Assembly: GCA_009836025.1 (NCBI GenBank)
Contig: VXWH01000052.1
Span: forward strand, 1-40,068
From: Synechococcus sp. SB0668_bin_13
Lineage (GTDB): Bacteria > Cyanobacteriota > Cyanobacteriia > PCC-6307 > Cyanobiaceae
Direction of reading: 5' to 3'
Length of the DNA: 40,068 bases
The position numbers and the translations under genes are program-made. This document shows positions 4,163-35,092 of the stretch, piece by piece (position 1 is the stretch's first letter; every line of letters starts with the position of its first letter). The notes under the pieces are model-generated. The model was not told where the DNA came from and made no database searches. It worked only from the letters and a program-made list of their open reading frames with translations.

Positions 4163-4747
4163 ATGCCGCGGGGTGGCCATGGAGATCTTCGTCTCAGTGA
4201 CGGGCGACGTCTACGGAGTCCACCGGGCGCCGTGACCCGCCCCACACCGGCGCGGGTGCGGCAGTCGGTGTTTAATCTCCTGCAGGAACAGGTGGCAGGG
4301 ACCCGCTGGCTGGACCTGTTCAGCGGCAGTGGCGTCATGGCCTGTGAGGCCCTCCTCCATGGCGCTGCCCATGTCACGGCCGTGGAGCGTCATGGCCGCG
4401 CCGCCGCTGTGACCCGCCACAACCTGGAACTGGTCTGCCATCCGCCCCAGACCTTCACCCTTCACCGGCGGGAGGTGTTGGCCTGGCTCCGCGCCTGGAA
4501 ACACTCGGCCGAGCCACGACAGCCCTTTGCCTTGATCTATGCCGACCCCCCCTATAACGGGGGACTCCATGGGCCCATGGCCACGGCCATACCCGCTGCG
4601 GGTGTGTTGGCGCCAACAGGCCTGCTGCTGCTGGAATGCACGAGTCGTCAGCCTCCCGCAACCCTGCCCGGCTGGCGACTGGGCAGCCGCCACCGCTATG
4701 GAGGCACCACAGTGCTGGTGCTCCAACAGGCTGTAGACAACGCTTAG
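4163..4747 (+). CDS. rsmD: 16S rRNA (guanine966-N2)-methyltransferase RsmD
   Basis: This class I SAM-dependent methyltransferase is predicted to methylate G966 of 16S rRNA. The N-terminal [16 protein letters not shown] is typical of RsmD, motif I is [16 protein letters not shown], and the catalytic DPPY is at 128-131. I use the ATG at 4163, giving 194 residues. A TTG at 4151 overlapping the hisH stop is also possible. The stop codon overlaps the petG stop on the opposite strand (4744-4747), so the two genes converge with no spacer. Confidence 0.93.
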
Positions 4748-4860
4748 CCCCCGAACATTCCCCCTTGGCGGCGGTACTGGTTGTAGGCGCTCACGAAGAG
4801 GCCGAGGATGGTGATGGGCACCAAGCCCAGAACAATGCCACAGAGCAGGGGTTCAACCAT
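4744..4860 (-). CDS. petG: Cytochrome b6f complex subunit 5 (PetG)
   Basis: This 38-residue single-span thylakoid membrane protein is needed for assembly and stability of the cytochrome b6f complex. The sequence begins [15 protein letters not shown] and ends with the polar stretch YNQYRRQGG, matching PetG throughout; its length is normal. It starts at an ATG and stops with TAA overlapping the rsmD stop. It is one of the clearest cyanobacterial markers in the window. Confidence 0.96.
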
Positions 4861-4976: not shown

Positions 4977-6545
4977 ATGCAACAATTCGTTGCAATCCCC
5001 TCCTGGCCTGAGCATCGACAGCTAAGGCGTTGGCTTGGCAGTGCTCTTCTTGCTTTACCCCTCGTGCTGCTGGCTGCCTGTGGTGGTGGAGGCGGTAGTG
5101 GCGGAGGAGGTGGAGGTGGTGATTCCGCTGCACCGGCCCCAGAACCTCCACAGCCGCACTCACAAGATCAACCCTCACAAGATCAACACTCGCAAGATCA
5201 ACCCTCAGAAGATCAACCCTCAGAAGGTCAGCACTCACAAGGTCAACCCTCACAGACTTCTATTCCCCCAGCGATTACAGACTCAGGGGGGATTCCACAT
5301 GGCGTTCCCGCCCATATCGAGACCATGCGGGCCGCCATTGAGAAGGGCTCCACGCTTGGGGAGGGTTACCCAACGGGGATTACGATATCGAGAACACAGC
5401 CCGTCACCCCGCCGGCGGGAACGGGAATCAACATCCAGTCGCAAGATAGCGCCGCTCGTTGGATGAATACGGGGGAGTCGGTCGCAGTTCCAAGCTGGAG
5501 CGCGTACTATCACGGGATCAAGCTGAGAGATTACAACAGTAAAATTGTTTCCCAAACGATCAATGTCTGGACGGATATTGGCGGACCAACTCCCAAGCCC
5601 TTCACCGAGGTCTACCCGCTGGATACAGACATCAGCGAAGACGGAACGAACGATGCCCTGCTGATCGATGAAAATAACATGGGTCTCATGACCCACTTTG
5701 CTCGCCACCCCGATGACAACCGCGACGGGGACGACTCTCCCGACGCCAGGGACCGGGGCGTTCTCGGCCAGAACAGGGAGTTCAACACAGGCCATGAGAT
5801 CGGCTCACGGTTCGACGGCGCCTATGGTGTGCTGACCTGCGTCTCTCAAACCTGCACGATCAATATGGACGACCATGCCTTGACGGAAATGACTGGCTGG
5901 GCCTTCGTGCCGAAGATCGTGACGGATGGGCAGGGCGGTTCGCGCTCGCCGCAGGTTCTGGTGGAGGATACCGACTATCGGTATTTCGGTTACTGGCTGC
6001 GGGGCCCGGACCACGCCAACGGCGGCGGGTACGATATCTACACCTTCGCCGGCGGCTCGGAACCCTATACCGGGGATACCGGGTCCCTCACCGGCCGGGC
6101 AACCTACAGGGGCCCCGCCGGCGGTCTGTACGTGAAGGACGCGGATGGCGGCAGTTCGTCGACTGGCCAGTTCACGGCAACGGTGACGCTGCATGCCGAT
6201 TTCGGAAGCAAGCAGACCATCAGCGGCAGCATGGGCGATTTCCGTGACGGCAGCAGAAATCTCGGCTGGAGTCTTGGGATGGGGAGCACATCGATCAATG
6301 CGTCGAATTTTTCCGGCACGACCCACGGCGTGACCTATGCCGGACAGAACCCTGTAGGCCAGGGGGACGTCTATACCGGCAGCGCCGGCAATATCGGCAG
6401 CTACGATGGGGCCTTCTACGGCAGCACGGAGGACAACAACTACCCGTACGGGGTCACCGGCACATTCACCGGCACATTCGACGATGGCGCGGTCATCGGC
6501 GGCTTCGGTGCAAGCCAGGCAGCCATCCACCCCAATCACCCGTAA
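4977..6545 (+). CDS. Surface lipoprotein with TbpB-like barrel, predicted Slam cargo
   Basis: The 522-residue protein is a predicted outer-surface lipoprotein. From the ATG at 4977 it has a signal peptide with positive residues RQLRRW, a hydrophobic core and a lipobox LLAAC with Cys35 as the lipidation site. A Gly/Ser-rich linker and about six tandem SQDQP-type pentapeptides follow, forming a flexible tether. The C-terminal third has the pattern of the small beta-barrel of TbpB-like and other Slam-dependent lipoproteins: glycine-rich strands, then GSYDGAFYGS, GVTGTFTGTFDDG and a near-terminal IGGFGASQA. The middle region (about 100-300) has no family I recognise. Earlier in-frame starts exist (ATG 4944). 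The predicted translocon gene begins 22 nt downstream, so the pair is probably one operon. The ligand is unknown; iron, heme or host molecules are known cargo ligands elsewhere in the family. It lies between picocyanobacterial core genes and was probably acquired by transfer. Confidence 0.8.
   Translation: MQQFVAIPSWPEHRQLRRWLGSALLALPLVLLAACGGGGGSGGGGGGGDSAAPAPEPPQPHSQDQPSQDQHSQDQPSEDQPSEGQHSQGQPSQTSIPPAITDSGGIPHGVPAHIETMRAAIEKGSTLGEGYPTGITISRTQPVTPPAGTGINIQSQDSAARWMNTGESVAVPSWSAYYHGIKLRDYNSKIVSQTINVWTDIGGPTPKPFTEVYPLDTDISEDGTNDALLIDENNMGLMTHFARHPDDNRDGDDSPDARDRGVLGQNREFNTGHEIGSRFDGAYGVLTCVSQTCTINMDDHALTEMTGWAFVPKIVTDGQGGSRSPQVLVEDTDYRYFGYWLRGPDHANGGGYDIYTFAGGSEPYTGDTGSLTGRATYRGPAGGLYVKDADGGSSSTGQFTATVTLHADFGSKQTISGSMGDFRDGSRNLGWSLGMGSTSINASNFSGTTHGVTYAGQNPVGQGDVYTGSAGNIGSYDGAFYGSTEDNNYPYGVTGTFTGTFDDGAVIGGFGASQAAIHPNHP
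5157..5252 (+). repeat. 15-nt in-frame tandem repeat in the lipoprotein tether
   Basis: About 6.4 copies of a 15-nt unit of the form (C/A)(A/C)C TC(A/G) (C/G)AA G(A/G)T CA(A/G) encode repeated S-Q/E-D/G-Q-P/H pentapeptides just after the lipobox and Gly/Ser linker. The unit is a multiple of three, so gain or loss of copies would change tether length without breaking the frame. Confidence 0.85.
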
Positions 6546-6567
6546 GAACCGCCAACGCGGCAAGAGA

Positions 6568-8130
6568 ATGAAACTCCAGAAGCGCTGGATCGGTAGGCTC
6601 TCAGCTGTCCAGGATCAGGCGCACCGCGTCCTTGCTGACGACTCCTTGGAACAGGGTAAAACCAGCACCCTCTTCACCTGCCGCACGTTGGCGCCCCGTT
6701 GCAACACGCTAGGATCACTGTCCTCCTGTACGCTCCGCCCGGCACCATCTTGGTTACGAGTCCTGAGCCTGGCGACCTTCAAGGCCATCTGTACGCTTGC
6801 CTGTCTTGCCGCCCTGTTCCTTGCTGCGCCACTGGAGGCCCAGGAGGCTGGGTCGCATCTGTCCTCCGATCCCCGTATCAACCATGCGGGAACGCTGATC
6901 CAGGCGGATCGTTTCACCGAGGCGCTGTCCATCCTGCGTCCACTTGCTTCTTCAGATCATCCGGATCAAGTGGATGTTCTGTTTTTGGTTGGTCTGGCGG
7001 CACTGGGCGCAGCCCAAAGCCCTGAGACGCCAGAGTCCGAACGCAAGGGATATCTGGACGAGGCAATTGCCGCGTTCCACAAGATCCTGGTGGGTCGGCC
7101 CGAACTGGCGCGGGTGCGGCTTGAACTTGCACGGGCCTTCTACGTCAAGGGGGATGACGGGTTGTCGCAGAAGCATTTCGAGCAGGTGCTGGCGGGGAAT
7201 CCGCATCCGGCGGTGGCTGGCAACATCAGGAGATTTCTTGCAGTCATCCGGCGGCGGCGCCGTTGGAAAGGCTATTTTGGCGCGACCTTGGCTCCTGATG
7301 GAAATATCAATGCGGCCTCCGATGCAAAGACTGTTGATCTCTGGGGTTTTCCATTCACACCGGACCAAGGCCCCCGCTCCGGGGTGGGAGTTGTTCTGTG
7401 GGGGGGGGGTGAGTATGAGCATCCGCTGAGCGGCACTGTCCGCCTTCGTGCAGGTGGTCACCTCTCACGAACGGAATACGAGGGTCGGGATTTCGATCAG
7501 ACTTTCCTTGCTGCCCACCTGGGGCCCCGCTGGTTTCTCGGCAATGGAACCGAGATCAGTCTGCTGAGCAGCGCCCGCCGCCACTGGGTGGGCGGCGATG
7601 GGGAATGGCGTGGGATCGGGTCCCGTCTTGAGACGAGCCATCGCTTGAGCAGGCGCTTCCTGGTGTACACTCAGGCATCCTACCACCAGCGGAGTTATGA
7701 CGAGGATATTGACCTGGACGGCCCATACAGCAGCCTCCGCCTGAGTGCCCGCTGGCAAGCAACGCCCACAGCGTCCCTGGAAGCCAGGGTGGGGGCGACC
7801 CAGAGTCGGACGGAACAGGAGCGCTACCGGAATGCTGGCCAATCGGTGGGTCTGGGTGCGTCTGTGGATCTGCCCCATGGCTTCACCATGGGCGTCGATG
7901 CAGAATCCCTCTGGACAGCCTATGAGGGGAACGGATATCCATTGGTGTCTTCAGGACAGTCCCGCAGAGACCGGACCCGGATTCTCAGTATCTCCCTGCT
8001 CAATCGTGGCTTTACCGTGCAAGGCTTCAGCCCCAAGCTGGTGCTGACCAGGACGATTCGCACATCCAACGCCCAGTTACAGGATTACCGTAGAACACGT
8101 ACGGAGTTGCGGTTCGTCAGGCAGTTATGA
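6568..8130 (+). CDS. Slam-like (DUF560) outer-membrane translocon, type XI secretion
   Basis: The protein (520 residues) is a predicted surface lipoprotein assembly modifier. Slam proteins are outer-membrane barrels that move lipoproteins or soluble partners across the outer membrane. Residues about 95-235 are helical and TPR-like (GTLIQADRFTEALSILRPL; VRLELARAFYVKGD). From about 240 the DUF560 barrel begins with RRRRRWKGYFGATLAPDGN, the typical domain entry, followed by alternating aromatic strands and a final strand ending TELRFVRQL. The start is an ATG at 6568, 22 nt after the lipoprotein stop. The hydrophobic signal segment lies unusually far in (about 63-87, then LEAQ), so the start may be wrong or the N terminus extended. 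A 10-G run at 7400-7409 falls in codons 278-281. The stop overlaps the next gene (ATGA). Slam/T11SS is best known in Proteobacteria; a cyanobacterial copy suggests transfer. Confidence 0.85.
   Translation: MKLQKRWIGRLSAVQDQAHRVLADDSLEQGKTSTLFTCRTLAPRCNTLGSLSSCTLRPAPSWLRVLSLATFKAICTLACLAALFLAAPLEAQEAGSHLSSDPRINHAGTLIQADRFTEALSILRPLASSDHPDQVDVLFLVGLAALGAAQSPETPESERKGYLDEAIAAFHKILVGRPELARVRLELARAFYVKGDDGLSQKHFEQVLAGNPHPAVAGNIRRFLAVIRRRRRWKGYFGATLAPDGNINAASDAKTVDLWGFPFTPDQGPRSGVGVVLWGGGEYEHPLSGTVRLRAGGHLSRTEYEGRDFDQTFLAAHLGPRWFLGNGTEISLLSSARRHWVGGDGEWRGIGSRLETSHRLSRRFLVYTQASYHQRSYDEDIDLDGPYSSLRLSARWQATPTASLEARVGATQSRTEQERYRNAGQSVGLGASVDLPHGFTMGVDAESLWTAYEGNGYPLVSSGQSRRDRTRILSISLLNRGFTVQGFSPKLVLTRTIRTSNAQLQDYRRTRTELRFVRQL
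7400..7409 (+). repeat. Poly-G tract (10 G) inside the Slam-like gene
   Basis: Ten consecutive G residues occur within codons 278-281 (Trp-Gly-Gly-Gly). Homopolymers of this length are classic slipped-strand sites in surface genes of host-associated bacteria. A change of one G would frameshift the barrel domain. Confidence 0.8.
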
Positions 8131-8738
8131 AGCTGTACACAGGATCAGACATGGCGTCAACACATGACGCGATTGGCAAGTTCCTGGGTGGCGTCGTTCT
8201 TCTCGCCTCTGCCCTGGCTGTCATGGCCCCAGAGCCGGTCCTTGCAGGTCTGGAGTTTTGCAACCGCACCCATGGCGCATCTACCCTCGCTCTGGCTCTC
8301 GCACATTACAACTTTGGTACATCACACGTAAGATCCAGCAAGGATGATTCATCTGACTTGACCATTATCGTGCAGCCCAGATGGACCATCAGGGGTTGGT
8401 GGGAGATCCCACAGCATGAATGCGTTACAGCGATTGATCGTGACCCGGACCAGACGCATTATTACTACTACGCTTATTCTCAAGATGATTCATATAATTA
8501 TTCAGGGGATTATCAAGTGTGCGGACGCAGATATGGTCGTTTCCATGTCGAATACAAAATAGACAACAACGAACTTGTGCAGATTCTTGCTCTCAAACCC
8601 TGGGGTATCGACACTGCATCTGTAGATTCTGAAACAGGTTTGGAGGAAGCTTGTGCTGATTTGGGATATGAACTCCTTCCTTTTAACCAGGTTGATGTTG
8701 GAGATACTGGGAATTACACCTTGAATTTCACGGATTGA
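8127..8738 (+). CDS. Secreted DUF1036 protein
   Basis: This 203-residue protein has an N-terminal signal peptide (hydrophobic FLGGVVLLASALAVMA, cleavage likely after VLA near residue 40). The mature part carries DUF1036 features: GLEFCNRT at its start, RGWWEIPQHEC, the tyrosine run YYYYAY, and DTGNYTLNF at the C terminus. DUF1036 has no established biochemical function. The start ATG overlaps the stop of the Slam-like gene, so the three genes 4977-8738 probably form an operon. An alternative start is the ATG at 8151. The coding sequence is AT-richer than its neighbours, especially after 8460, consistent with acquired DNA. It may be a soluble substrate or accessory of the translocon; this is inference from coupling only. 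Confidence 0.75.
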   Translation: MKLYTGSDMASTHDAIGKFLGGVVLLASALAVMAPEPVLAGLEFCNRTHGASTLALALAHYNFGTSHVRSSKDDSSDLTIIVQPRWTIRGWWEIPQHECVTAIDRDPDQTHYYYYAYSQDDSYNYSGDYQVCGRRYGRFHVEYKIDNNELVQILALKPWGIDTASVDSETGLEEACADLGYELLPFNQVDVGDTGNYTLNFTD

Positions 8739-8767: not shown

Positions 8768-9847
8768 CTATGCGCCGCTGAGCACAGCCTCAGGGGGGAT
8801 CCACATGGCGTCCCCAAAGGAATAGAAGCGATAACCATGGGCCAGGGCCTCCTGGTACAACGTCAGCAGCCGTTGGCGGCCAATGAGGGCACTCACCAGC
8901 AGCAGCAGACTGGAGCGGGGCAGGTGGAAGTTGGTCAACAAGCCATCCATCACCTGGAAGCGGAAGCCGGGGCGGATGCACAGATCCACGGCGCCGCTGT
9001 GGGGCTGGAGCTGCCCCCCGTGGCGTGCGGCCACCCCCTCCAGAGCGCGGCAACTGGTGGTGCCCACCGCCAGCACCCTCCCTCCCTGGGCCTTGGTCCG
9101 CCCCACGGCGCTCACCGTGGCGGGGCTGATTTCCACCCGTTCGCTGTGGAGTTGCACCTGGCTGAGGTCTTCCGTCTGGAGGGGCTGGAAAGTGCCCAGG
9201 CCCACATGGAGGGTGATGGCTGCACTGGCCACACCGGCTGCCTCCAACCGCCGCCGCAACTCCCTGCTCAGATGCAGACCCGCCGTGGGGGCCGCCACGG
9301 CGCCGGGGCGACGAGCATAGGTGGTCTGGTAGCGCTGCTCATCCTGGCAGCCAGACCGGATGTAGGGCGGCAAGGGAAGTTCTCCATAGGTGTTCAGGAA
9401 TTGCTCCATGGCCTCCAGTTCCGGGTTGGCAAATCGCAGGAGACGGGTCCCGCCGTCACCGTGCCGACCCAGCACCTGCACCGCCACGGGTGGCTGTCCC
9501 GGGGGAGGCTGGATCCGCAGCCACTCCCCGGGGCGAACCCGCTGACCGGGTTTCACCAGACCCAGCCAGGTGTTGTTCCGGTGGGGCTCCAACACCAGGA
9601 GTTCCACCAGGCCGCCACTGGCCCGTCGGGCCTTCAGTCGGGCCTTGAGCACGCGGGTATCGTTCAGGATCAGCAGGTCGCCCGGTCGCAGCAGGGCAGG
9701 CCACTGGGCCATGGTGGCATCCCGCCAGCCTGTGCCGGGTTCCACGCAGAGCAGTCGCGCACTGTGGCGCGGCTCCGCCGGCGCCTGGGCGATGGCCTCC
9801 TCCGGAAGGGTGTAGTCGTAGCTGGAGAGGTGGTTGTCCTGGTTCAT
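8768..9847 (-). CDS. queA: tRNA ribosyltransferase-isomerase QueA
   Basis: QueA transfers and isomerises the ribosyl group of S-adenosylmethionine to make epoxyqueuosine in tRNA. The 359-residue product is full length: SSYDYTLPEEAIAQAP at the N terminus, RPGDLLILNDTRVLKARL, the PGAVAAPTAGLH motif, TTSCRALE, and LLTNFHLPRSSLLLLVSAL near the end. The start is the ATG at 9847. An open extension beyond it would overlap the divergent gene at 9917 and has no QueA character. It points away from the alkyltransferase-like gene, with a 69-nt gap for divergent promoters. Confidence 0.96.
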   Translation of the reverse strand: MNQDNHLSSYDYTLPEEAIAQAPAEPRHSARLLCVEPGTGWRDATMAQWPALLRPGDLLILNDTRVLKARLKARRASGGLVELLVLEPHRNNTWLGLVKPGQRVRPGEWLRIQPPPGQPPVAVQVLGRHGDGGTRLLRFANPELEAMEQFLNTYGELPLPPYIRSGCQDEQRYQTTYARRPGAVAAPTAGLHLSRELRRRLEAAGVASAAITLHVGLGTFQPLQTEDLSQVQLHSERVEISPATVSAVGRTKAQGGRVLAVGTTSCRALEGVAARHGGQLQPHSGAVDLCIRPGFRFQVMDGLLTNFHLPRSSLLLLVSALIGRQRLLTLYQEALAHGYRFYSFGDAMWIPPEAVLSGA

Positions 9848-9916
9848 GCTCCCGGGGGGCGCAGGCCTCCCGATCCTGCTTGTGGGAGCCTTAGCCTGAT
9901 GCATTGGCCGCCCACC

Positions 9917-20490: not shown

Positions 20491-20616
20491 GGGTCGCATC
20501 CGCCGGCAAACACTTCCGAGCGTAGCAAGCCATGGGGCCGGGATGCTCGACCCTCCCGGCCCGCAAGCGGGAGACTGGAGAGCGGCCTTTTGGTTTGCAG
20601 GCTGACACTCGTAGTC
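20491..20616 (+). promoter_or_regulatory. Presumed CRISPR leader and divergent pyrH promoter region
   Basis: Repeat orientation by analogy to type I-E (CTGTTCCCC at the 5' end) puts the leader on this side. The segment is only 126 nt, is GC-rich rather than AT-rich, and contains a GC hairpin-like stretch (CCCTCCCGGCCCGCAAGCGG) at about 20550-20570. It must also serve pyrH on the other strand. Confidence 0.4.
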
Positions 20617-22531
20617 CTGTTCCCCGCACACGCGGGGATGGACCGTGCTGGACGTTGGACATGCCAGTGCAGCGGCGCCTGTTCCCCGCACACGCGGGGA
20701 TGGACCGGAGCAGCAACTCGCGGCGACTGCGCAGGAGATTGCCTGTTCCCCGCACACGCGGGGATGGACCGTTAGCAGTGGGAGCATGGAGGTCACGGGG
20801 CCAGGACTGTTCCCCGCACACGCGGGGATGGACCGAGCGAAATACGCATGGGGAGTGTGGAGCCCAGGCTGTTCCCCGCACACGCGGGGATGGACCGGAG
20901 AAGGCACCGCCGCCAGCCGGGTCACACTCTCCTGTTCCCCGCACACGCGGGGATGGACCGACTAATGGCCCCAACGACCCAACGCCAGGCACGTCTGTTC
21001 CCCGCACACGCGGGGATGGACCGGCCACGCTGATGCTTGAGGGCCTCCTGGGCCTTAACTGTTCCCCGCACACGCGGGGATGGACCGGCTCTCATCAACG
21101 AGGTTGGAAGCAAAGCTCTGACCTGTTCCCCGCACACGCGGGGATGGACCGGGGGGGCGGTGTCGATTCCCTCGATCCGGGTGGCCTGTTCCCCGCACAC
21201 GCGGGGATGGACCGTGGGTACATGGGTACACCCCCGCCGGGACTCCCTGTTCCCCGCACACGCGGGGATGGACCGTCCTAGACGGTGCACGTCACCCAGG
21301 ACTGCCGCCCTGTTCCCCGCACACGCGGGGATGGACCGAACATGGGTCCACAGTCACTACCACCCAATTCCGCTGTTCCCCGCACACGCGGGGATGGACC
21401 GAAGGAGGTCTCGTTTTCTCTGGAGTTCCCCATCCCTGTTCCCCGCACACGCGGGGATGGACCGATCGGGCCAGCCAGCGGATGCGTGCGGACCGCCTGT
21501 TCCCCGCACACGCGGGGATGGACCGGTGCATCCTCTGCCAGCCACTCCAGAGCCTCCACCTGTTCCCCGCACACGCGGGGATGGACCCACCCCATGGCGG
21601 TGGAAGATCCGCGCCCCGGACTGTTCCCCGCACACGCGGGGATGGACCGGCGCTGGCCGTCGCCCGGAAGGAGATTCAGGCCGCTGTTCCCCGCACACGC
21701 GGGGATGGACCGTGATCCCGTGGCCACGGAGAGTCGGCCCCCAATTGCTGTTCCCCGCACACGCGGGGATGGACCGACAGAGGGACCTGCAGAGACGGCT
21801 GCTGATCACCTGTTCCCCGCACACGCGGGGATGGACCGGGCATCATCGTCCGCTGCGGTTGCCGTTGGGGCGGGCTGTTCCCCGCACACGCGGGGATGGA
21901 CCGCGCAACGCACGATGGTGTCCGTCATGGCGCACGACTGTTCCCCGCACACGCGGGGATGGACCAGTCATGGTGCCAAGGGTGATTTGGACACTTCTAC
22001 TGTTCCCCGCACACGCGGGGATGGACCGGAGAACGCCAGAAGCATGAGGAGTCAGCGGCTGCCTGTTCCCCGCACACGCGGGGATGGACCGGCCTGGACG
22101 TCCCGGCTTCACTTGCAGAGTCTACCCTGTTCCCCGCACACGCGGGGATGGACCGATTGTGTGATCCGGGCCGGTGAGGAAGGGATTCCTGTTCCCCGCA
22201 CACGCGGGGATGGACCATTGACCGGGGCAGAGCTGACCAGGGCAGAACTGCTGTTCCCCGCACACGCGGGGATGGACCGATCCACCGACTGCCGCTGAAC
22301 GGAGCATTGGCTGCCTGTTCCCCGCACACGCGGGGATGGACCGCCAGCTCTGCCCCGCTCAGGTCTGCACCGCTCAGCTGTTCCCCGCACACGCGGGGAT
22401 GGACCTCATCAGTGCTGGCGCTAGCCTGGATTCCATAAACCTGTTCCCCGCACACGCGGGGATGGACCGGAAACGCAGCACGATAAGCATCACGCAAGGT
22501 AACTGTTCCCCGCACACGCGGGGATGGACCG
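20617..22531 (+). CRISPR. CRISPR array, 31 repeats, type I-E-like
   Basis: There are 31 copies of a repeat whose first 28 bases looked identical in every copy I read. It begins CTGTTCCCCGC, has a loop with ACAC, and ends GCGGGGATGGACC. The internal CCCCGC/GCGGGG palindrome and overall form match the type I-E repeat family (E. coli-like GTTCCCCGC...GCGGGGATAAACC). Base 29 is G after 27 repeats but C after repeat 16, A after repeats 22 and 26, and T after repeat 29. The 30 spacers are 32-36 nt with a 29-nt repeat (mean about 34), and none looks duplicated. Leader orientation to the left is inferred from repeat polarity and from the variants clustering in the right half. No cas gene lies in the window, so activity depends on genes elsewhere. 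Confidence 0.97.
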
Positions 22532-32157: not shown

Positions 32158-32175
32158 GGGCCTTTGGTCCTCAAG
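32153..32175. terminator. Hairpin between convergent DUF3370 and methyltransferase genes
   Basis: CTTGAGGGCC and GGTCCTCAAG can pair over 10 bp (one G-U) around a TTT loop. It spans the DUF3370 stop codon and the stop of the convergent gene. No U-run follows on either strand, so it may be a bidirectional stem that protects mRNA ends rather than a canonical intrinsic terminator. Confidence 0.5.
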
Positions 32176-35092
32176 GTGGAGCGGTTCCCTTGCCGCCATG
32201 GACGGACGGCTCTGCGCACCACTGAAGGCGTAGCAGGTCCAGCGACTCCATGGTGTCCTCAGGCAGCCCCAGCAGGTGGATCAATACGGCCCGGTCGAGT
32301 GCCTGGCGAACGTCGTCTCTCCAGGCCTCGTTCGCCGGCAGCAGTTCCTGACCCCTGAAGGCGTCGAATATGGTCCTGGCCCGTTCCAGTTGCCCGCCTG
32401 AGAGACGCCGTGTATCGAGAACCGGCAGGGCCGGAAGCCTTGAAATCGTGAGTGCTGCCCGCCCTTGGTGCTGACGGGATCCAATCCACCAGAAGGCCAT
32501 AAGCCCCAGCGTCGTGTTGGCCCACAGGACGAGGGGGATTTCCCAGGGTTCTTCCTGGCAAAGGAAGTTCGGCCATGCCCGACCGCCTATCGACGGCTCC
32601 GGCGTCATGCAGGCGGCAAGCGGCTGGGAGTTGATGCGGAAGTCGAGGGTGAAATGTAGCCGTGACGACGTATTCCGCCAGGCTGCAACTGCCTGTTGCC
32701 TGTTCCCGGGCCTGACTTCGGCCACACTGTCCGGACCAACGATCAATCGGGTTTCCCGCCGGGCCTCGTGCCTCCACAGGGCAGGGTAGGTTGGGATCGT
32801 ACCGGGGCGAAGCGCCACAATATCGAACGGTCCGCGGGCAACCCCCGCTGTCGTGCCGTTGATATCCCGGTCCAGAAGCCCGCGCCGGCCAAGATCGTCA
32901 AGCCGGCAGATTGGGAGAGACAGTGATTCTGAACGACGGGGAAGCTGCAATTCTCCTCGCGCCAGCCCCGCCGCCACTTCCACTGTTTCAGGCGAACGCA
33001 AGCCAGCACTTCCCATCTCGGCAAACGTGGCCCGGATGTAGCAGCCCAGCCGCTCTCCCGTTCCCACGGAGACGGGACCGAAACGTTCCCCGGCAGAAGG
33101 CAATCGACCCACGGTCCAGGCAATAGCAACGGCCTCAAGAATTGATCGGGGGCGGTGGAAAAGATTAACAAACAGAACATTCCTGTTCGCGTTTTCGTTG
33201 TTACTCTTGTTGTTGTCTTTGCGGTTGGCAACAATCAAGACTTCCGCCATTCCAGTATCGGCGGAAAAGGCGCAATCCGTTGTACCCGTTGCCGCAATGC
33301 TGATGATGGCAACGTCCCTGTAGTGCTCCTCAAGCATTCGCCGTGCGCTGGCCCAGGAAGCTCCTTGCAGAAAGGAGGCCGGGAGCACCAGCGCCAGCAC
33401 GCCGCCGTCACTCTTCAGCTTGACATGGGCGATATCCATGAAATTGGATGCAAGACCGGCATTGCCGTGACCCGCCATTCCCGGCCTGCGGATCCGGTTT
33501 AGCTTGCGCGACATTGCCTTCTGCTCGTCCTCCTTTGTAGCGAAGCCGGCAAAAGAAGGGACGGGAACATTGGCCACCTCGTGATTTGTCGGCCTGGTAA
33601 AGGGGGGATTCATGATGACAAGATCAAATCCGCCGTGGGGAATATCGATGCGTTGGTCATTGCCGCTGCCGCTGCCCCTCAGTCTTTTCTGCCCTGTGCC
33701 AAAGAGAGGTATGGTGGTTTCCTCTCCGATCAGATCAAGAGCCCCCAAGGCCGTAGGGTGGCCGGTATCGGTGGGCTGTTTTCCATAGGGCAGCGTAATA
33801 ATCGAGGTATTGGCAAACGGCACTGTGGGATGGGCGCTGGACAGCACCGAGGCCGTAAGGTGAGTGGCCGCGGGCATGATGTCGGAGCCCACAAGCACCG
33901 CCTCCATCATGGCGGCATGGATCTCTCTATCGTCCCCGGAATGACGTCTGTAACGGGAGAGAACAGCCTGATAGGTTGCATTTAGTAGTGCCCCCGTGCC
34001 ACAGGCAAAGTCGGCAATTCGTAGCGCCTTCACTGCCTCTTTATCCGACCAGTTGGTGTCGAGGCGGGCGACGGCCAGTTCCGCAAGCAACGCAGCAGAG
34101 CTGGGCAGTGTGTAGAATGTGGCCAGGAACTTTCGATCAGAGATAAGACGTTGGAACATACGTCCGCTCAGATCGTGTTGGCTTGTCGTGCCAAGGGCTA
34201 CCAATTCCGAAGACACTGTCGACAGCCGGCTAAGAATATGATACGCTATGCGATCAGGAATAGGTGTAAGCAGAATGATTGCGATTTTGAAAATCGGCCA
34301 GTAATTGACCTTGTTAAGGATACTGTACCAGTGATTCAAAAGGTTAGCTTTGGGGAGTCCTCCGGTTTCGCCGCGCAGGTCGTCGGGTATCTTTATAATG
34401 AAGGATTGATCTCCATTGCCAGTGCCGGCAATTGCCGCCTGGAAAATCATCGCGTTCGCGATGATGGCCATGGCCATTCTTGTCGTTTGAATTCCATCCT
34501 GCTGATGCAATTCATTTGCAATTCTCTCGAGTTGCGCAGGTATGTCAGCGCAGTGGTCACGCAATAGATTGGCAGTCTGAGAGATTACGATCTCCAGGAT
34601 CCCAAGACCCTCGGCAATCCGGTCTTCCGACAACGCCGTCAACTCAATGCAGGCGGCCAGATCATCGATTCCGCCCTGAATCCAACCGCGTTCCGGCCAG
34701 CGGGTCGGATTTTGGTGTTCCCCGGAAAATACACAGAACTCAAGCAGAGAGGCAATGATCGATTGTTCCAGGTCCTGCTGGTTCACTGCCGCCAGACTGT
34801 CGGGTATGCGGAGGGCAATGGACTGCTCAATGCGCCGTCCACTACCTTGCAGCGTCTTGCCCAACCGCGCCCGGGCATCCTCTTCCACTGTGTGCGCCGG
34901 ACTGTATTCGGTTTCTACAGCCACCGGAAGGCCGCCAGGGTGGCGGATCATGATGTCCGGTTTGAGCCCGGCGCCTTCCCGCAATACGCCTGTCTGCTCG
35001 ATCCCGATGCGGTCGTGCCAGCGCGGATGCTTCCTCCTTATGATGCCACCCAACGCGACGTTGAAGGCCGGTTCGGAAACTCTCGGCTTCAT
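32171..35092 (-). CDS. N6-adenine DNA methyltransferase with putative N-terminal nuclease (type IIG-like)
   Basis: The 973-residue protein combines a putative nuclease and a gamma-class adenine methyltransferase. Near the N terminus, PD (45-46) followed by VAVETEY (58-64) resembles a PD-(D/E)xK-type site with ExE. A helical region follows to about 300. The methyltransferase core has TFYTLPSSAALLAELA, motif I DFACGTGALLNATYQ (from 361) and motif IV NPPF (495-498). The last 300 residues probably hold the target-recognition region. The start ATG has a strong Shine-Dalgarno (TAGGAGG, 6 nt before). It may be a single-chain restriction-modification enzyme or a solitary methylase of a defence system; no partner gene is nearby. 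AT-rich patches (about 34150-34560) and its position between DUF3370 and a broken copy of DUF3370 indicate insertion of foreign DNA. Confidence 0.85.
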   Translation of the reverse strand: MKPRVSEPAFNVALGGIIRRKHPRWHDRIGIEQTGVLREGAGLKPDIMIRHPGGLPVAVETEYSPAHTVEEDARARLGKTLQGSGRRIEQSIALRIPDSLAAVNQQDLEQSIIASLLEFCVFSGEHQNPTRWPERGWIQGGIDDLAACIELTALSEDRIAEGLGILEIVISQTANLLRDHCADIPAQLERIANELHQQDGIQTTRMAMAIIANAMIFQAAIAGTGNGDQSFIIKIPDDLRGETGGLPKANLLNHWYSILNKVNYWPIFKIAIILLTPIPDRIAYHILSRLSTVSSELVALGTTSQHDLSGRMFQRLISDRKFLATFYTLPSSAALLAELAVARLDTNWSDKEAVKALRIADFACGTGALLNATYQAVLSRYRRHSGDDREIHAAMMEAVLVGSDIMPAATHLTASVLSSAHPTVPFANTSIITLPYGKQPTDTGHPTALGALDLIGEETTIPLFGTGQKRLRGSGSGNDQRIDIPHGGFDLVIMNPPFTRPTNHEVANVPVPSFAGFATKEDEQKAMSRKLNRIRRPGMAGHGNAGLASNFMDIAHVKLKSDGGVLALVLPASFLQGASWASARRMLEEHYRDVAIISIAATGTTDCAFSADTGMAEVLIVANRKDNNKSNNENANRNVLFVNLFHRPRSILEAVAIAWTVGRLPSAGERFGPVSVGTGERLGCYIRATFAEMGSAGLRSPETVEVAAGLARGELQLPRRSESLSLPICRLDDLGRRGLLDRDINGTTAGVARGPFDIVALRPGTIPTYPALWRHEARRETRLIVGPDSVAEVRPGNRQQAVAAWRNTSSRLHFTLDFRINSQPLAACMTPEPSIGGRAWPNFLCQEEPWEIPLVLWANTTLGLMAFWWIGSRQHQGRAALTISRLPALPVLDTRRLSGGQLERARTIFDAFRGQELLPANEAWRDDVRQALDRAVLIHLLGLPEDTMESLDLLRLQWCAEPSVHGGKGTAPP

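Follow-up and report, generated by a model that had tools for sequence, protein, structure and literature searches.

The window, i.e., the whole analysed stretch of 40,068 nucleotides from Synechococcus sp. SB0668_bin_13 (contig VXWH01000052.1), carries three linked genes on the plus strand, encoding a predicted surface lipoprotein of 522 aa (the putative cargo; positions 4977–6545), a Slam outer-membrane translocon of type XI secretion (6568–8130, start uncertain) and a DUF1036 protein whose signal peptide is not of the lipoprotein type (8127–8738). The original prediction of such a cassette between petG and queA was confirmed. Both flanking genes lie on the minus strand, namely the cyanobacterial core gene petG on the left (4744–4860, read by translation) and queA on the right (8768–9850, 5' end approximate; PF02547, E = 1.9e-102). 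Since these core genes enclose the cassette, the contig is cyanobacterial and the cassette is not a stray contig. The GC contents of the three cassette genes (0.60, 0.61 and 0.48) are lower than those of the flanks (0.65–0.66). Elsewhere in the window, a CRISPR array of approximately 31 repeats (CTGTTCCCCGCACACGCGGGGATGGACCG) with spacers of 33–34 nt (20616–22531) and a gene on the minus strand for a 973-aa protein with a weak match to an Eco57I restriction-modification methylase (32174–35092; 2.6e-5) were observed.

In a Pfam profile search, the second gene was assigned to the SlipAM (DUF560) family PF04575 with an E-value of 7.2e-21 (75.4 bits, cut-off 22), the match covering positions 1–286 of the 288 profile positions, in agreement with its earlier designation as a Slam gene. 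The profile matches place the SlipAM outer-membrane barrel domain at 7264–8121 and a periplasmic TPR-like region at 7054–7218, the latter being based on weak matches below the respective cut-offs (TPR_19, 2.5e-5, 24.9 bits, cut-off 25; TPR_Slam, 1.8e-3, 19.1 bits, cut-off 35.2). Solved structures searched by sequence with the Slam profile yielded no match. The location of the Slam gene downstream of the lipoprotein gene stands as predicted, whereas the proposed spacing of 22 nt depends on an ATG at 6568 that is probably not the true start. In the alignment, Slam homologues start far later, and five intact ones can begin at a signal peptide, which renders ATG 6568 doubtful; the gap to the lipoprotein gene may thus exceed 22 nt. 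Judging from the alignment, translation may begin at a later codon, e.g., TTG 6688.

The lipoprotein features a signal peptide that ends in a lipobox (..LVLLAAC; 4977–5081) and, behind it, a Gly-rich tether, an architecture read directly and alike in its relatives. A hydrophilic linker of SQDQP-type repeats (5160–5255), recognized from sequence and alignment, is missing from the closest orthologue, encoded in genome G133. Alignments, fold searches and co-occurrence delimit a C-terminal domain (5784–6542) that is likely to be recognized by Slam. For the window lipoprotein alone, no Pfam family was obtained above cut-off, and PF01298 did not match up to an E-value of 1. Among 12 members of the cargo family, three matched TbpB_B_D (PF01298; best E-value 3.5e-5) and one matched FHBP_C at 0.03. 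The only solved structure retrieved at E < 10 with the cargo-family profile was HpuA, a weak match at 0.074, and no TbpB-like match was obtained among solved structures with an initial cargo profile that spanned the full length.

A model of the full-length lipoprotein was discarded (pLDDT 31) and the C-terminal domain alone, predicted from 12 sequences, was used instead; its confidence is modest (mean pLDDT 52.9). The first eight Foldseek matches of this domain model represent NHBA, PmSLP, fHbp and TbpB with probabilities of 0.97–1.00 at a model pLDDT of 53, and the probability falls to 0.13 for the ninth match. Compared with fHbp by VIA-align, the same model (pLDDT 53) reached a Z-score of 11.7, the C-terminal barrels superposing at 2.5 Å over 117 residues. 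Both the profile matches of the relatives and the predicted fold therefore support the previously postulated TbpB-like barrel, and the domain is taken to be of the TbpB/fHbp type.

Members of the cargo family have the lipobox and the barrel in common, and their N-terminal halves diverge. Four to five cargo copies each, mostly distant from Slam, were found in genomes G008 and G149. In G008, two tandem, near-identical cargo lipoprotein genes are located at approximately 53.8–56.3 kb of contig C64 (L125/L128). Furthermore, the window's own genome encodes lipoproteins (L049 1–2106 on contig C159 and L121 on contig C152) to which an autotransporter-like C-terminal barrel is apparently fused; their passenger and the cargo barrel are weakly related, giving two export logics within one protein family.

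In order to interpret the distribution of the cassette, it has to be considered that the 400 genomes screened are a sample of a larger family and that related genomes are not independent. PF04575 was present in seven of them, all belonging to the window's genus (7/10, as compared with 0/~390 other family genomes). Among the genomes sampled, the locus is thus not an ordinary core gene set of all free-living marine Synechococcus, in line with the initial interpretation. A phylum-wide search of 386 genomes returned the window's genome and one borderline match (G719, ~22 bits), which was rejected as a cyanobacterial Slam, its sequence appearing porin-like and devoid of a TPR region. A first profile of the cargo barrel matched all seven Slam-positive and none of the three Slam-negative genomes of the genus, an agreement of lists expected by chance in 1 of 120 cases, and a larger cargo profile applied to the 400 family genomes recovered exactly the same seven. 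Both parts are missing from G091, G114 and G188, i.e., 3/10 genomes, so the cassette is not essential to the genus.

Moreover, a Slam alignment scan across 84,980 named species yielded cyanobacterial matches in Ca. Synechococcus spongiarum LMB bulk15M, SH4 and SP3, in Synechococcus SB0662_bin_14, in Prochlorococcaceae jk18x22bins.40 and in Cyanobacteria CAR3_bin_5, as well as matches in two non-cyanobacterial bins, Defluviicoccus bin129 (MPNO) and RHO3_bin_65. By the names of these records, the genus corresponds to Ca. Synechococcus spongiarum, which comprises sponge symbionts. Since the sampled free-living relatives do not possess the cassette, it represents a concrete candidate for contact between symbiont and sponge. 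Defluviicoccus bin129 is a symbiont of the sponge Aplysina aerophoba (PMC5649159), and the bin code of RHO3_bin_65 fits membership in the Rhopaloeides set of PMC8163846.

The DUF1036 assignment of the third gene, as well as its ATGA overlap with Slam, was likewise upheld: PF06282 matched with an E-value of 8.1e-14 (52.7 bits, cut-off 23), covering only positions 26–83 of the 113 profile positions, and the overlap was read directly at 8127–8130. DUF1036 genes are expanded in the genus (9/10 genomes, several copies in most) and occur outside it in 4 of ~390 family genomes. A DUF1036 gene adjoins Slam in all seven Slam-positive cyanobacterial genomes, and this, together with the overlap in the window, is what would be expected if Slam had been repurposed to secrete the DUF1036 protein, the upstream lipoprotein not being its substrate. 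This reading is nevertheless regarded as improbable. An orthologue persists in Slam-minus G091, showing that DUF1036 is not tied to Slam, whereas the lipoprotein tracks Slam perfectly across the 400 genomes. Likewise, the DUF1036 profile did not match any solved structure searched by sequence, which argues, at that level, against a TbpB-like barrel in the protein. In G091, DUF1036 genes cluster with genes for a subtilisin-like lipoprotein and a large ankyrin-repeat protein (L045 6195–14011).

The related proteobacterial Slams also adjoin the lipoprotein family and not DUF1036. In 7/11 related proteobacterial regions (L174–L179 and L183), a cargo-family gene directly precedes Slam in the same orientation; an eighth region (L184) contains cargo genes nearby, none of them directly upstream. 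A DUF1036 gene beside Slam was found in 0/11 of these regions. Since this adjacency was seen only with the cyanobacterial Slams, the ancestral unit is deduced to have consisted of cargo and Slam, to which DUF1036 was added later. Among the cyanobacterial genomes, G008, G149, G164 and G176 have no cargo gene directly adjoining Slam.

Based on a tree of 29 Slam sequences, the six intact cyanobacterial Slams form one clade (support 100/99), nested among Slams of alpha- and deltaproteobacteria (wider clade, 98/96; next, 94/88). As the tree was rooted at its midpoint, the direction of transfer is read from the distribution of the family, which is broad in Proteobacteria but confined to one cyanobacterial genus. 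On these grounds, the cassette appears to have been acquired horizontally from Proteobacteria. Truncated Slams were also encountered in sponge alpha- and deltaproteobacterial bins. In one sponge alphaproteobacterium, a Slam TPR fragment is located beside serine recombinases (L110 5722–7449), which suggests mobility of the cassette.

Within the Slam gene, a mononucleotide tract of ten G (G10; 7400–7409) encodes Trp-Gly-Gly-Gly in frame, and orthologue comparison revealed G9 and a frameshift at this site in G133. In the remaining five species, these residues are likewise encoded, but the runs of G are interrupted. The frameshifted gene of G133, the three genus genomes devoid of Slam and the truncated genes in the sponge bins could indicate that the transferred island is a decaying, neutral remnant whose function has been lost, which is considered very unlikely. 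Six species retain an open Slam with dN/dS values mostly of about 0.2–0.5 over the barrel half, and the cargo genes have multiplied, most copies being intact. Furthermore, the post-frameshift half of the G133 gene is as conserved against other species as that of intact genes, and the shift is therefore recent, reversible or an assembly error. Decay of G133 Slam had been considered from a post-tract dN/dS of 0.78 between the window and G133, but the values of G133 against other species are normal, so that the high value does not demonstrate decay.

The frameshift in the sister species provides a lead towards phase variation of Slam. As a genome-wide signature of contingency loci, poly-G was rejected: by a rough estimate from base composition, ~30 tracts of at least G10 are expected, and the observed number is close to this. 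Many long G runs of the genome are also located at contig ends, so the G10 tract alone is not evidence of contingency. In the same genome, a C11 run is located just 5' of a lipoprotein signal (L050 8143–8153) and a G15 run directly after a lipobox (L052 89–103); these possibly represent further contingency sites, or else assembly artefacts. A more far-reaching scenario, in which unrelated bacteria of sponge microbiomes share lipoprotein display by horizontal gene transfer and the symbiont exhibits variable cargo through one poly-G-switched Slam as a phase-variable display for host contact, is speculative and rather unlikely.

Taken together, the locus is interpreted with high confidence as a type XI secretion (Slam) cassette that a sponge symbiont obtained by horizontal transfer and that exports barrel lipoproteins. 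As judged from sequence comparison and the domain model, it very probably places a family of lipid-anchored barrel proteins on the cell surface. The cassette would have passed from Proteobacteria to the ancestor of Ca. Synechococcus spongiarum, or entered early in the history of the genus. Given the observed lipobox, the lipoprotein would leave the cytoplasm through Sec and receive its lipid at Cys35. In Neisseria, Slam recognizes the C-terminal part of a lipoprotein that Skp holds unfolded, and carries this protein across the outer membrane (PMC9090332). By analogy, the cyanobacterial lipoprotein may be kept unfolded in the periplasm and then pass through the Slam barrel, which would recognize the C-terminal TbpB/fHbp-like barrel. 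It would fold outside the cell, with the lipid and the Gly-rich tether anchoring it in the outer leaflet. Considering the common barrel and the unlinked copies observed, several cargo lipoproteins encoded away from Slam probably depend on a single Slam for export. The DUF1036 protein is probably an addition specific to this lineage and might act as a secreted partner or as a non-lipidated cargo.

Regarding the exposed N-terminal domain, the distribution of the cassette and the known Slam cargo suggest that its ligand in the sponge is probably a host molecule or a nutrient; a direct role in host contact is conjectural. That the Slam-cargo system instead captures nutrients such as metal, haem or an organic ligand, and was retained as sponge tissue is rich in such ligands, is a realistic possibility, rated somewhat below even chances. 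Binding of haem, haemoglobin or transferrin is common among the known Slam cargo proteins, and the folds nearest to the C-domain model include HphA/hemophilin and TbpB, HpuA being the sole match among PDB sequences. However, the complement-factor binder fHbp is also among these nearest folds, the cargo N-termini vary, and neither a TonB-dependent receptor nor a haem gene was recognized among the cassette neighbours scanned.

Among characterized systems, Slam1 with TbpB and fHbp as well as Slam2 with HpuA of Neisseria share with the cassette the SlipAM outer-membrane barrel, in front of which they have a TPR region that the cassette, judging from its below-cut-off matches, probably has as well. 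Their cargo likewise features a lipobox, a Gly-rich tether, a C-terminal 8-stranded barrel (predicted in the cassette) and a gene adjoining Slam. The cassette differs in its cyanobacterial host, in one Slam accompanied by as many as five cargo genes in a genome, most of them unlinked, in cargo N-terminal domains distinct from known ones and in the additional DUF1036 gene. NilB/NilC of Xenorhabdus nematophila also belongs to an invertebrate symbiont and combines a T11SS membrane protein with a two-domain lipoprotein cargo possessing a C-terminal barrel, a likeness drawn from its published description. The role of NilC in colonisation is experimental (PMC9100927), whereas that of the cassette would follow from its distribution. 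The Slam-dependent lipoprotein PmSLP of Pasteurella multocida (PDB 9b3e) was the second-best fold match (E = 1.3e-3), but it is a protein of a mammalian pathogen with 12% sequence identity. Cargo-Slam pairs from an order of deltaproteobacteria (G729, i.e., RHO3_bin_65, and relatives) and from the alphaproteobacteria G838, G1042 and G1049 belong to the same Slam clade (98/96), most of them with the same cargo family directly upstream; the cyanobacterial cassette is distinguished from them by the DUF1036 gene beside Slam and by its cargo N-terminal regions.

The main T11SS papers searched and a survey of Slams from 2017 describe the system in Proteobacteria; cyanobacteria are mentioned in none of them, and sponges are absent from the former. 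Within the open-access literature searched, nothing was found that links DUF560 or type 11 secretion with sponges, nor was an earlier report of T11SS in Cyanobacteria found; type XI secretion and cyanobacteria occur together in one general review. Type XI secretion in Cyanobacteria would thus constitute a new phylum for a known system, with a telling host distribution. Among the sampled genomes, it is confined to a genus of sponge symbionts and is phylogenetically linked to proteobacteria including sponge bins. Other Slam-cargo pairs have been reconstituted in E. coli, and expression in this host makes proteins of an uncultured symbiont accessible to testing. The cassette genes thereby become named candidates for the means by which a photosymbiont may present itself to sponges, which are among the oldest animal lineages.
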